This document shows positions 304-48,677 of a DNA stretch of 64,000 bases, one piece after another. Numbering within the stretch: position 1 is the first letter of the stretch; each line of letters opens with the position of its first letter. Made by a program: the position numbers and the translations under genes. The stretch is from the NCBI RefSeq assembly GCF_003627965.1, contig NZ_RBWE01000001.1, positions 2,393,804 through 2,457,803 on the forward strand. Direction: 5' to 3'. The notes beneath the pieces are model-generated. The model saw only the letters and a list, made by a program, of their open reading frames with translations. It did no database searches and was not told the origin of the DNA. Source of the DNA: Desulfofundulus salinus. GTDB taxonomy: Bacteria > Bacillota > Desulfotomaculia > Desulfotomaculales > Desulfovirgulaceae.

Positions 304-392
304 GCCGAAGTGGTGGAACTGGCAGACGCGCCGGACTCAAAATCCGGTGGGGCTCACACCCCGTGCGGGTTCGACTCCCGCCTTCGGCACCA
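304..392 (+). tRNA. tRNA-Leu(CAA)
   Basis: The acceptor stem GCCGAAG pairs with CTTCGGC, followed by discriminator A and an encoded CCA. The anticodon loop CTCAAAA gives anticodon CAA, which reads UUG. The long variable arm (GTGGGGCTCACACCCCGTG region) and GGTTCGACTCCC T-arm are typical of a class II leucine tRNA. It has its own promoter and terminator. Confidence 0.98.
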
Positions 393-2782: not shown

Positions 2783-2865
2783 TGGTGTCGGAGGCGGGAC
2801 TCGAACCCGCACGGTTTCCCACACGCCCCTCAAACGTGCGCGTCTGCCAGTTCCGCCACTCCGAC
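2783..2865 (-). tRNA. tRNA-Leu(GAG)
   Basis: Read on the minus strand, GTCGGAG pairs with CTCCGAC, then discriminator A and encoded CCA. The anticodon loop TTGAGGG gives GAG, which reads CUC (and CUU). A long variable arm is present. CUC is the apparent specifier codon of the T-box leader at 34293-34618, so this tRNA is the likely ligand of that leader. Confidence 0.96.
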
Positions 2866-4137: not shown

Positions 4138-4482
4138 ATGGTGAGCGATATGAGCCCAGACGTCCAAAATTTGCTGGCTTTTTTACAAAACCTGCAGGAA
4201 AAAACCGTACCGGAAATAAGCCAGGCCTGTGCGCAGAAAATCCACCGCATGGAGCTTACCGGCGATCCCGACCGGGCTCTGGTGGAGCATTTAAAGTCCA
4301 TGATCCTGCTTATCCGGCACCTGCGTCGACCCCCCGTAGCCCGGGACGAAAAGGTGCGGCGATTTTTAATCGAGTTTTTTACCAGGATACAACAGCACGA
4401 CCGCCGGGCAAAACATGTACTCGAGGTGCTGCATAAAATGGACTCCAGCAATCAACAAACCGGTAATTCAACTGCCGGTTAA
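4138..4482 (+). CDS. Small helical hypothetical protein
   Basis: A 114-residue, highly helical and charged protein without recognisable domain or membrane segment. AAGGAG at 4127-4132 sits 5 bases ahead of ATG 4138; the GTG at 4132 that would extend the frame overlaps that site and is therefore rejected. Located 75 bases after the anchored helical protein and 127 bases before the tandem GTPase gene, it is a plausible member of the same expression unit. Confidence 0.65.
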   Translation: MVSDMSPDVQNLLAFLQNLQEKTVPEISQACAQKIHRMELTGDPDRALVEHLKSMILLIRHLRRPPVARDEKVRRFLIEFFTRIQQHDRRAKHVLEVLHKMDSSNQQTGNSTAG

Positions 4483-29861: not shown

Positions 29862-32345
29862 TCACTTCACCACGATGTTCACCAGTTTCCCCGGCACGGG
29901 GATGACCTTCACTATTTGCTTGCCCTCCACCAGTTTCTGCACCCGGGGCTGGGCCAGCACTACTTCCTGCATTTGAGCCGGGGTGATGCCGGCCGGCACC
30001 AGCACCCGCTCCCGCACCCGGCCGTTGATCTGAACCACAATGGTAATCTCGTCTTCCACAATGGCCCCGGGGTCGTAGGCAGGCCAGGGCTGCCTGTGGA
30101 TGCTCTCCCGGTGGCCGATGGACTCCCACAGCTCCTCGGTTATATGGGGAGCAAAGGGAGCCAGCAGAATCAGCAGGTGCTCGATCCCCTCCCGCAGAAC
30201 CGCCGGGTCCCGGTCGGTTTCCGGCACCTCTTTGTACTGGTACAGGGCGTTCACCAGCTCCATGATGGCGCTGACGGCGGTGTTGAAGTTAAACCGGCTG
30301 CCGATATCCTCGGTCACCTTTTTAATGGTCAGGTGGGTCAGGCGGTGCATTTGCCGGTTGACCCCCACCAGCTTACCTGCCGGTTTTGGCGGTGCTTCCA
30401 GCAGCCCGCCGGCTACGGAGGCAACCAGGCGCCAGACCCGGTTGAGGAACCGGTAGCAGCCCTCAACCCCCTGGTCGCTCCATTCCAGATCCCGCTCGGG
30501 GGGTGCGGCAAAGAGGATGAAAAGCCGGGCGGTATCGGCCCCGTATTTGGCCACAATCTCCTCCGGGCTGACCACGTTCCCCCTGGACTTGGACATCTTG
30601 GCGCCGTCTTTCAAAACCATGCCCTGGGTTAACAGGTTGGTGAAGGGCTCCTGGATGCCCACCAGCCCCAGGTCGTAGAGCACCTTGGTGAAGAAGCGGG
30701 AATACAGCAGGTGCAAAATGGCGTGTTCCACGCCGCCAATGTACTGGTCCACGGGCAGCCAGTAGTCCACCCTGGCCCGGTCCCAGGGCTGCTTGTCTTC
30801 CCGGGGACTGGTGTAACGGTAGTAGTACCAGGAGGAACACATGAAGGTGTCCATGGTATCGGTTTCCCGCCGGGCCGGCCCGCCGCACCGGGGGCAGGTG
30901 GTATTCACGAACTCCGGGCAGTCGGCCAGGGGCGATTGTCCGGTGGGTTTAAATTCCACGTCCCGGGGCAAGAGCACCGGCAGGTCCTCTTCCGGCACGG
31001 GGACGATGCCGCACTTATCGCAATATATAATCGGAATAGGGGCGCCCCAGTAACGCTGCCGGGAAATCAGCCAGTCCCGCAGGCGGTAGTTCACCTGGCC
31101 CCGGCCCAGGCCCTTTTCCTCCAGGTAGGCGATTACCGCCCGGATCCCTTCGTCTTTGGGCAGGCCGTTGAACTGGCCGGAGTTTACCATCACCCCGTCG
31201 CCGGCATAAGCTTCCGTCATGGTCTGTGGGTCCAGTTCCTCCCCGGGCGGCTGGATGACCACCCGGATGGGCAGGTTGTACTTGCGGGCAAATTCAAAGT
31301 CCCGCTGGTCGTGGGCCGGCACGCCCATCACTGCACCGGTACCATACTCCAAAAGGACGTAATTGGCCACCAGTATGGGCACCCGCTCCCCGTTCAAGGG
31401 GTTGATGCAGTAAGCTCCGGTAAACAGCCCTTCCTTTTCCACGTCGGTGGCGGTGCGGGCAATTTCGTTTAAATTGCGCACCCGCCGCACGAAGTCCCGC
31501 ACCGCTTCGGCCTGGGGCTTGCCTTCAACGAGCTTCTCCACCAGGGGATGTTCCGGAGCCAGCACCATGTAGGTCACCCCGAACACCGTGTCGGGGCGGG
31601 TGGTAAAGACCACAATCTCCTCATCCATATCGGCCACTTTAAAGCGGATTTCCGCCCCCTCGCTGCGGCCGATCCAGTTTTCCTGCATGATTTTAACCTT
31701 CTCCGGCCAGCCCTTCAGCAGCTCCAGATCCTTGAGAAGGCGCTCGGCGTAGGCGGTAATTTTAAAGAACCACTGTTCCAGTTCCCGCTTTTCCACGGGA
31801 GTCTTGCAGCGCTCGCAGGCACCCTCCTTGACCTGCTCGTTAGCCAGCACCGTGGCACAGGAGGGGCACCAGTTGACCGCTGCTTTTTTCTTGTAGGCCA
31901 ACCCTTTATGATAAAGCTGCAGGAACAACCACTGGGTCCACTTGTAGTAGCCGGGATGGCAGGTGGCCACTTCCCGGTCCCAGTCGTAGCTGATGCCCAG
32001 CTGCTTGAGCTGGGCACGCATGGTCCTGATGTTATCCATGGTCCAGTCGGCGGGATGGATGTTGCCGTGTTTGATGGCCGCGTTTTCCGCCGGCAGGCCG
32101 AAGGCGTCCCACCCCATGGGGTGCAGGACGTGGTAACCCTGCATGGTTTTAAAGCGGGCCACCACATCGCCAATGGAGTAGTTCCTTACGTGGCCCATGT
32201 GCAGCTTGCCCGAAGGGTAGGGAAACATCTCCAGGCAATAGTATTTTGGACGGTCGGAGAAATCCGGGGTCTTATATAAATTTTCTGCGGCCCAGCGGGC
32301 CTGCCACTTCGCTTCAATTTCCTTGAAGTCGTAGCGTTCGTTCAC
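29862..32345 (-). CDS. leuS: Leucyl-tRNA synthetase
   Basis: Class I synthetase, 827 residues. The HIGH motif reads HMGHVRNYS and KMSKS is present in [12 protein letters not shown]; an editing domain ([20 protein letters not shown]) sits in the middle and an anticodon-binding domain at the end. GTG 32345 is chosen ([15 protein letters not shown]) because AAGGGGG lies ahead; the frame extends further but without support. It has its own promoter and is separated by an acyl-CoA ligase gene and a terminator from the leucine-type T-box upstream. Confidence 0.97.
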
Positions 32346-32525: not shown

Positions 32526-34190
32526 TCAGGCTGTTTCTACCCGGGCTGCCTGGAACAAATTCAACTCACGGATGGCCTGCTCCCGCAGCTTGAACTTTTG
32601 CACCTTGCCGTTGGCCGTGGTGGGGTAGCTGGACACAAATTGGATATACTGTGGTATTTTATACCGGGCAATTTTGCCGTTACAAAACTCCCTGATTTCC
32701 TCGGCCGTGGCTGTACAGCCTTCCTTCAATTGTATGAAGGCCATTACCTCTTCACCGTACTTGCTGCTGGGCACCCCCACCACCTGCACATCCTTGATCT
32801 TGGGGTGGGTATGCAGGAATTCCTCAATCTCCCGGGGGTAGATGTTTTCACCGCCCCGGATGATCATATCCTTGATCCGTCCCGTAATACGGACGTAGCC
32901 CTGTTCATCCATAATCCCCAGGTCGCCGGTATGCAGCCAGCCTTCCCGGTCAATGGTGCTGGCCGTAGCCTCCGGCATTTTATAGTAACCCTTCATAACG
33001 TTGTATCCCCGGGCGCAAATCTCGCCCTGGTACCCCCGGGGTACTTCTTCCCCGGTGGCCGGGTCCACTACCTTTACCTCCACGCCCGGTAAGGCCCTGC
33101 CCACGGTGGATACCCTGATCTCCAGGGGGTCGTCGGTCCTGGTCATGGTAATTCCCGGGGAAGCTTCGGTCTGACCGTATGTAATTACTATTTCCTTCAT
33201 CCCCATGCGGCTTACCACCGCTTTCATCACTTCCATGGGGCAGGGAGCCCCGGCCATGATGCCGGTGCGCAGGGAAGATGTGTCGAAGGGTTGCTTTTCC
33301 AGCACCTCCAGCTCGGTGATGAACATGGTGGGTACGCCGTGCAGGGCGGTGCACCTTTCCTTTTCCACTGTTTCCAAAACCCGCACCGGATTGAAGGACT
33401 CCAGGGGCACCATAGTGGCTCCCGAGACCACACAGGTCAAAGTCCCCAGCACACAGCCAAAGCAGTGGAAGAAGGGCACCGGGATGCACAAGCGGTCCCG
33501 GGGACTGAAATTCAGGCACTCGGCTATACTTTTTGCATTCATGACTAAATTTTTATGGGTCAGCATGACCCCCTTGGGGAAACCGGTGGTCCCGGAGGTA
33601 TATTGCATGTTAATCACGTCATCGGGGGCAAGGGAGGCCTGGCGGGCTACCAGCTCCTGTTCGGAAATGGCCTCAGCCATCCCCAGCACCTGCTCCCAGG
33701 TGTACATGCCCGGGTGCTCCTCGTCGCCGATAAAAACCACATTGCGCAGCATGGGGAATTTTTTCGCATTCAGCCGCCCGGGCAGGCAATGGTTCAATTC
33801 CGGGCAGAGTTCGTGGAGCATTTCTACGTAATTGGATTCCTTTGTTCCGTTGATGAGTAAGAGGGTGGTGGCATCGGACTGCCGCAACAGGTACTCCAGT
33901 TCGCGCACTTTATAATTGGTGTTTACCGTGACCAGCACGGCACCGATTTTGGCCGAGGCAAACTGGAGGACGACCCACTGGGGTATGTTGGTGGCCCACA
34001 GGGCAATGTGCTCGCCCCGTTTTATGCCCAGGGCCATCAATCCCCTGGCCGCCCGGTTACACAGTTCCCGAAACTGCTGGTATGTATAGCGCAAACCACG
34101 GTCGGTATAAACCAGGGCCTCGTTATCTGGATACAGGGCAGCCGTCCTGTCGAGCAGGTCACCAATAGTGATCTGATCAAACCGATCCAT
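32526..34190 (-). CDS. AMP-forming acyl-CoA synthetase (fatty-acid type)
   Basis: The 554-residue ANL-superfamily enzyme has the AMP-binding P-loop YTSGTTGFPKG, GWLHTGDLG and DMIIRGGENIYP, and the C-terminal catalytic Lys in ANGKVQKFKLR. It activates an acid with ATP and CoA. Medium- or branched-chain acids are plausible but unproven. It sits directly behind a leucine-type T-box, where leuS would be expected; control by leucyl-tRNA charging would therefore fall first on this gene. Confidence 0.93.
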   Translation of the reverse strand: MDRFDQITIGDLLDRTAALYPDNEALVYTDRGLRYTYQQFRELCNRAARGLMALGIKRGEHIALWATNIPQWVVLQFASAKIGAVLVTVNTNYKVRELEYLLRQSDATTLLLINGTKESNYVEMLHELCPELNHCLPGRLNAKKFPMLRNVVFIGDEEHPGMYTWEQVLGMAEAISEQELVARQASLAPDDVINMQYTSGTTGFPKGVMLTHKNLVMNAKSIAECLNFSPRDRLCIPVPFFHCFGCVLGTLTCVVSGATMVPLESFNPVRVLETVEKERCTALHGVPTMFITELEVLEKQPFDTSSLRTGIMAGAPCPMEVMKAVVSRMGMKEIVITYGQTEASPGITMTRTDDPLEIRVSTVGRALPGVEVKVVDPATGEEVPRGYQGEICARGYNVMKGYYKMPEATASTIDREGWLHTGDLGIMDEQGYVRITGRIKDMIIRGGENIYPREIEEFLHTHPKIKDVQVVGVPSSKYGEEVMAFIQLKEGCTATAEEIREFCNGKIARYKIPQYIQFVSSYPTTANGKVQKFKLREQAIRELNLFQAARVETA

Positions 34191-34292: not shown

Positions 34293-34618
34293 AAAACGAA
34301 AACCTCCCGCCCCTCTAGGGACGGGAGGTTTATCCCGCGGTACCACCCTAATTGGTAAATGGTGGAGCTGGCGGGAATCGAACCCGCGGCCTCTTCCATG
34401 CCAAGGAAGCGCGCTCCCTCTGCGCCACAGCCCCATACTTACCCTCTCGATGTGCTTTAACGGCCACACGCCGGCCCGGAGTACTTTCCTTTCCCCCGGG
34501 CAACTCCGGGGCGAGTTCAGCAACCCGGTTCACCGCCTCGCACCTTCCGGCGGCTCTCTGCAGACACCGCTGCTGCCTACTGCTCCCCATCACAGTCATT
34601 TGTCCTTATTAACGGACA
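34293..34618 (-). promoter_or_regulatory. T-box leader (leucine specifier) containing an embedded tRNA-Ala
   Basis: On the minus strand: stem I region with AGTA and GGTGCGAGGCGG blocks, a specifier loop CTGAACTCGCC giving codon CTC (34513-34515, leucine), GGAAAGTACTCCGG, CCGTTAAAGC and GAGAGGG; then a complete tRNA-Ala(GGC) at 34360-34434; then the T-box AGGGTGGTACCGCG (34336-34349) and a terminator stem CCTCCCG/CGGGAGG with TTTTCGTTTT. GGTAAG before the tRNA can pair with TTTACC just after it, so the tRNA occupies the place of stem III. Promoter at 34625-34653. Confidence 0.9.
34360..34434 (-). tRNA. tRNA-Ala(GGC) inside the T-box leader
   Basis: Minus strand: acceptor GGGGCTG pairs with CAGCTCC, with the G3:U70 wobble that identifies alanine tRNA, followed by A and encoded CCA. 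The anticodon loop TTGGCAT gives GGC. D- and T-arms (GGTTCGATTCC) are intact. No separate promoter is seen between it and the T-box promoter, so it would be cut out of the leader transcript by tRNA processing. Confidence 0.95.
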
Positions 34619-34624
34619 CCTACA

Positions 34625-34653
34625 ATTGTACGACATACCTGCCCGTTTGTCAA
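34625..34653 (-). promoter_or_regulatory. Promoter of the T-box/tRNA-Ala transcript
   Basis: TTGACA (34648-34653) and TACAAT (34625-34630) on the minus strand with a 17-base spacer; predicted start about 34618, at the beginning of the T-box stem I. Confidence 0.88.
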
Positions 34654-48565: not shown

Positions 48566-48677
48566 AGATAAAACCTCCCCTTTTTCAGGTCTCGCCGAAA
48601 GCAGGTAGGGCTTTTTGCCCTTTTATAAAACCCCTTTCGTGCGGTTGCGGCAGCGCGAAAACTGCCTACGGTATAAC

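Follow-up and report, generated by a model that had tools for sequence, protein, structure and literature searches.

T-boxes are textbook tRNA-sensing riboswitches in which stem III is normally a short connector, and the leuS leader of Bacillus subtilis is an example of the transcriptional kind (RF00230). The T-box leader of B. subtilis thrS is cleaved near its terminator, and some tRNA genes are co-transcribed with mRNAs or rRNAs, from which RNase P cuts them out. The leuS leader described here brings a T-box and a tRNA-Ala together: each is of a known kind, and what is new is that the tRNA-Ala is nested in the T-box and that the nesting is conserved. No published account of a tRNA inside a T-box was found among open-licence papers in PMC, so that the remark in an earlier, sequence-only reading of this DNA that no T-box with an internal tRNA has been described is uncontradicted within that literature, with earlier mention elsewhere possible; term searches of PMC2494555 and of the TBDB paper (PMC7778990) gave no mention of one.

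A tRNA-Ala gene in stem III of the leuS leader

The window, by which we mean the whole 64,000-nucleotide stretch of Desulfofundulus salinus DNA that was analysed, holds a full-length T-box leader at 34602-34314 on the minus strand, downstream of rsfS. In an Rfam model search RF00230 matches it with 120.3 bits (E 4.6e-26, cut-off 93), and the alignment runs unbroken through all 219 model positions (1-219), passing over an insert of 76 nt within the loop of stem III. This insert is the tRNA: the tRNA model RF00005 matches it at 34434-34363 with 68.2 bits, and ARAGORN calls tRNA-Ala(GGC) at 34434-34360 (minus strand), where it forms the tip of stem III. Between 34653 and 34290 of the minus strand the order of parts is promoter, stem I with CTC, stem II, IIA/B, GAGAG, helix arm, tRNA, second arm, AA, T-box and terminator, as follows.

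34625..34653, minus strand: sigma-70-type promoter TTGACA-17-TACAAT, 11/12 consensus matches (0.4 expected in shuffles, both strands together)
34314..34602, minus strand: T-box leader with tRNA inserted in stem III (RF00230)
34503..34602, minus strand: stem I with AGUA, AGAGA and GGUG-type motifs (alignment, model positions about 1-103)
34513..34515, minus strand: specifier CTC (TGAACTCGCC), matching tRNA-Leu(GAG) as reader (sequence)
34474..34500, minus strand: stem II (RF00230 alignment and sequence)
34457..34473, minus strand: stem IIA/B pseudoknot region, CGG...CCGTTAAAGC (RF00230 alignment and sequence)
34444..34448, minus strand: GAGAG, the RRRNG motif ahead of stem III (sequence)
34437..34443, minus strand: stem III closing helix, 5' arm GGTAAGT (alignment, folding, covariation)
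34360..34434, minus strand: tRNA-Ala(GGC), intact, with G3:U70 and encoded CCA (ARAGORN; RF00005)
34354..34360, minus strand: closing helix, 3' arm ATTTACC, its first base being A76 of the tRNA (alignment, folding, covariation)
34352..34353, minus strand: AA after stem III, part of RRRNG-stem III-AA (sequence)
34317..34349, minus strand: antiterminator, with T-box AGGGTGGTACCGCG at 34349-34336 and UGGU bulge at 34345-34342 (RF00230 alignment)
34300..34331, minus strand: intrinsic terminator hairpin of 14 pairs, then a T-rich tail

The sequence-only reading had described a complete leucine-type T-box leader on the minus strand, with an intact tRNA-Ala(GGC) at the site of stem III, GGTAAG/TTTACC pairing that closes it, and one promoter for both, and all of this is borne out: the RF00230 match, CTC, CCGTTAAAGC, AGGGTGGTACCGCG and terminator are present, the tRNA is found by both methods, and the closing pairing is recovered by folding. 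The promoter is near-consensus and lies upstream of all parts, and no second one was found ahead of the tRNA on the same strand between 34150 and 34800. RNA folding of the leader gives a cloverleaf atop the helix that closes stem III; past the acceptor stem it predicts the pair U-1:A73 and a 7-bp helix of which A76 is part. Judged by sequence, the leader has each T-box feature tested, among them a UGGN bulge in an antiterminator mutually exclusive with a terminator, and each tRNA-Ala feature tested.

The genome has nine T-boxes, of which only this leuS leader holds a tRNA. Another of its T-boxes (L007 1501-1890, C1:2803335-2803724) is unusually long at 390 nt; in the region from stem I to the IIA/B motif it carries an inserted large hairpin, GCGTGATTTAGCT...AGCTAAATCACGC, and a tRNA is absent from it.

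The genes downstream of the leader, and the leucine tRNAs that ARAGORN finds in the same window, are these.

32526..34190, minus strand: fatty acid CoA ligase family protein, 554 aa, first regulated gene (best NCBIfam match NF009233, just under its cut-off)
29862..32345, minus strand: leuS, leucyl-tRNA synthetase (TIGR00396, 1160 bits; probable start codon position)
2783-2865, minus strand: tRNA-Leu(GAG), expected ligand of the leuS T-box
304-392, plus strand: tRNA-Leu(CAA)

Because the CoA ligase gene sits between the T-box and leuS, it too would be under leucine T-box control. Intervening genes occur elsewhere as well, several other loci having the leuS start ~1-2 kb downstream. The window also contains a ribosomal protein L21 leader (RF00559, 42 bits, 48578-48656, minus strand), which is ordinary.

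Distribution across genomes and phyla

A homologous leader with tRNA-Ala(GGC) inside is present in 20 of 41 genomes (the window's own and 40 relatives), spread over seven families and fourteen genera. RF00230 passes its cut-off around the tRNA in 18 of the 19 homologous loci of relatives (own genome apart), where the model places stem I and the antiterminator on one transcript, as the sequence-only reading implied. At least 120 loci were returned by a GTDB search whose pattern called for a T-box and, no more than 30 nt away, the CCA-bearing 3' half of a tRNA of any type, and relatives and listed pattern matches together make 141 distinct sequences, own locus included. ARAGORN called a tRNA in 139 of these 141 listed sequences, every one of them Ala(GGC); the remaining two, without a call, are truncated where the stretch ends. 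Within the window's own phylum, which is what the frequency figure covers, an even sample had the arrangement in 62 of 398 genomes and 41 of 266 genera; a reversed control pattern gave 0 matches in the same 398 genomes.

By record name the arrangement extends to at least seven phyla, Bacillota plus at least six others; the names among the matches listed are Bacillota, Chloroflexota (Ktedonobacteria), Thermomicrobia, Atribacterota, Coprothermobacterota, Caldisericota, Armatimonadota and Actinomycetota. Many listed loci are MAGs, and the named isolates among the matches listed are Ktedonobacter racemifer, Carboxydothermus islandicus, Orenia metallireducens, Syntrophomonas spp. and Desulfofundulus spp. 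A lone 'Desulfovibrio' record clusters with Bacillota in the LeuS tree and looks misnamed. A LeuS query against viral contigs gave three distant matches and nothing more. In Candidatus Atribacteria RBG_19FT_COMBO_35_14 (L132, about 2400-2830), tRNA-Ala(GGC) and an antiterminator stand before leuS, and stem I was not recognised, unlike in other Atribacterota loci; for this reason the T-box half may be broken there, or the sensor may have been damaged or rebuilt.

Full-length T-box scores are 94-136 bits in most of the listed homologues. Outside Bacillota the T-box part is often under the RF00230 cut-off, with E values of 1e-13 to 1e-18 in 6 of 7 such loci. Such sub-threshold scores in a few phyla could be taken to mean that the two are chance neighbours, a tRNA gene having landed in a defunct T-box, but the same tRNA and the same downstream gene recur across phyla and most homologues combine a full-length T-box with a conserved CTC and a covarying closing helix, so that this explanation is refuted for the group as a whole and we give it practically no credence.

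Conservation and covariation of the two parts

Both parts of the composite leader are conserved. Among the matches listed, leuS follows on the same strand in 104 of 129 loci and is no more than 1 kb away in 96; many of the remaining listed loci are cut short or have a gene in between. The specifier reads CTC in about 101 of the 105 listed leaders readable by the search expression. Stem III is followed by AA in 127 and preceded by RAGNG in 117 of 134 listed homologues, RRRNG-stem III-AA being a T-box motif according to PMC7778990. On the tRNA side, the cloverleaf, GGC anticodon and CCA are intact in 139/139 of the listed loci, as is the alanine identity pair G3:U70 (139/139), U stands at -1 in 117 of these 139, and embedded tRNAs score on par with free ones; in thermodynamic folding the acceptor stem has a probability > 0.5 in just 60% of the 139 listed loci. 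This pattern indicates that T-box and tRNA are both under selection.

The helix that joins the tRNA to the T-box covaries strongly. Its arms were anchored on the flanking motifs rather than on pairing, which left 75 distinct arm pairs among the matches listed, and in these 73% of positions form standard pairs, against 59% in shuffles and at most 50% when the arms are slid. Both sides have changed in 91 cells, whereas shuffles give 32 such cells (maximum 53); identical arms were removed from these counts, which are otherwise uncorrected for kinship. When arms are swapped between loci the pairing score drops from 10.5 to 8.4.

The sequence-only reading had also suggested that the ACCA end of the tRNA pairs in cis with the T-box UGGU, which might lock or tune the switch. 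The two are complementary and lie 14 nt apart, but the predicted pairing probability is 0.0006 in the window and has a mean of 0.02 over the 139 listed loci, exceeding 0.1 in only 5 of them, and the embedded CCA end is covalently extended. A 3'-extended tRNA acts like a charged tRNA toward T-boxes. The suggestion is therefore not upheld, and we regard such pairing as very improbable.

Relatives with one half and the copy number of tRNA-Ala(GGC)

Members of the same order that lack the joint element are mainly of two sorts. Nine relatives have tRNA-Ala(GGC) directly before leuS with the T-box absent, and in all eight of those whose flanking sequence was inspected the tRNA stands between a TTGAC-TATAAT-type promoter immediately ahead of it and a terminator-like hairpin, which shows it to be a gene in its own right. 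At least six relatives of the same order keep the T-box without the tRNA, and stem III there is a short hairpin; in one (L230) it reads GGTAAA-ACGT-CTTTACC, in which a short loop caps the closing helix, and in another (G031) tRNA-Ala(GGC) sits elsewhere in the genome (L246). Relatives with the tRNA outside the leader had been named in the sequence-only reading as a possible refutation; some do have one half without the other, but these cases look like losses from the joint state. In a quick LeuS tree, which leaves direction and old transfers unsettled, the one-half rows nest within joint-element groups, and the rows of several other phyla form branches of their own. We read this as a joint element that is probably old, either half of which would have been lost several times later.

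In one further leuS T-box (L227, genome G039, about 4220-4330, minus strand) the place in stem III that the tRNA occupies in sister genomes is taken by 75 nt of non-tRNA sequence. This insert could be a decayed tRNA, but its similarity to an intact neighbour is not significant, 156 of 2000 shuffles aligning as well.

The embedded tRNA is apparently often the cell's only copy of its type. In a complete relative genome (G001) 42 tRNA genes were typed, and the sole Ala(GGC) among them is the embedded one. In Carboxydothermus and in three genomes of Syntrophomonadaceae, searches that used the tRNA as query gave no further Ala(GGC). The Ala tRNAs found in the window's own genome are the embedded GGC and a CGC only; Ala-UGC and Ile tRNAs, usually rRNA-linked, were not found in this assembly of 10 contigs, and a second Ala(GGC) could therefore lie in the missing sequence. 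Taken as a group these observations make the embedded tRNA-Ala(GGC) probably indispensable. They bear on a further explanation, in which the tRNA serves only to fill the structural place of stem III and goes unused as a tRNA. The insert does replace the stem III loop exactly, at the place where T-box relatives have a short hairpin, but a mere prop would hardly be expected to keep cloverleaf, anticodon, G3:U70 and CCA intact in every one of the listed loci typed, to be the only Ala(GGC) found in a complete genome, or to be retained in nine relatives after the T-box had gone, and we consider this explanation most unlikely.

A proposed dual-use leader

We propose instead that the leuS operon leader is a dual-use RNA, at once a tRNA-Leu(GAG) riboswitch and a precursor of tRNA-Ala(GGC) that is later excised, and we hold this proposal with considerable confidence. 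The CUC specifier would read tRNA-Leu(GAG), and in leucine shortage uncharged tRNA-Leu would pair with UGGU and stabilise the antiterminator, allowing polymerase to enter the acyl-CoA ligase and leuS genes. Because the terminator is downstream of the tRNA in the order of parts, every transcript should contain pre-tRNA-Ala; each initiation would yield one whether leuS is expressed or not, and leucine control would act on the genes only. The closing helix would hold the T-box core together, and in Desulfofundulus, where it extends the acceptor stem almost continuously, it should slow RNase P until the terminator decision. Longer spacers between helix and tRNA in many relatives mean that this protective step is not general, and it is the weakest of the scheme. 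RNase P and 3' nucleases would then free the tRNA and discard the sensor half, leaving either a terminated tail or a leuS mRNA with a new 5' end. From the tRNA being intact and single-copy we infer that it is excised by these enzymes and used, and we likewise infer the order of events and the protection by the helix. Since excision splits stem I from the antiterminator, the T-box decision must come first or be lost.

On a different reading, processing is itself a regulatory input: an early RNase P cut at the tRNA 5' end would sever the sensing of tRNA-Leu and force termination, so that maturation and leuS control would compete, as the sequence-only reading had supposed. The RNase P site does fall between stem I and the antiterminator. 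The nucleotides before the tRNA are also suggestive: among the matches listed, GU stands at -2,-1 in 68 of 139 loci, and GU or GG in 80 of 139, pairs reported as unfavourable for RNase P (PMC9433436), as if cutting were restrained. Against this, the T-box decision is co-transcriptional and falls within about 70 nt past the tRNA, which may leave little time to cut, and Desulfofundulus itself has AU at -2,-1, which is an optimal pair. We consider a regulatory cut plausible but rather unlikely. Across phyla, the four nucleotides that precede the embedded tRNA (-4 to -1) fit A-Y-R-U in most listed loci.

Returning to the dual-use leader, a more far-reaching version of it, advanced tentatively and with more doubt than conviction, is that the composite is an ancient one in which maturation of an essential tRNA is mechanically coupled to a leucine riboswitch, RNase P access (through stem III and the charging of tRNA-Leu) linking the supply of a tRNA-Ala to leuS expression.

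Comparison with known systems

One RNA thus seems to sense one tRNA while also providing the precursor of another, and a stem III made of a tRNA gene specific to a different amino acid keeps the same partner gene across several phyla. This raises the questions of how a riboswitch functions when one of its parts must be cut out, whether the switch times the processing of the tRNA, and why tRNA-Ala(GGC) and leuS have stayed paired so long. It also calls for caution in annotation, where overlapping tRNA and riboswitch features get treated as separate things.

With transcriptional T-boxes such as that of B. subtilis leuS the leader shares stem I, stem II, the IIA/B element, CUC, RRRNG-stem III-AA, the UGGN bulge, the antiterminator and terminator, and a synthetase gene downstream; it differs at the end of stem III, where the short loop is replaced by a whole tRNA gene, apparently functional and specific to another amino acid. 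As in the B. subtilis thrS leader, endonuclease processing is expected between the sensor and the regulated gene, but here the leader should be cut further upstream, in the course of tRNA maturation, which would free a second functional RNA. Finally, as with tRNAs co-transcribed with other RNAs, a tRNA is to be excised from a longer, multifunction transcript, whereas this tRNA belongs to the structure of the riboswitch itself, and its excision must split the sensor from the switch.
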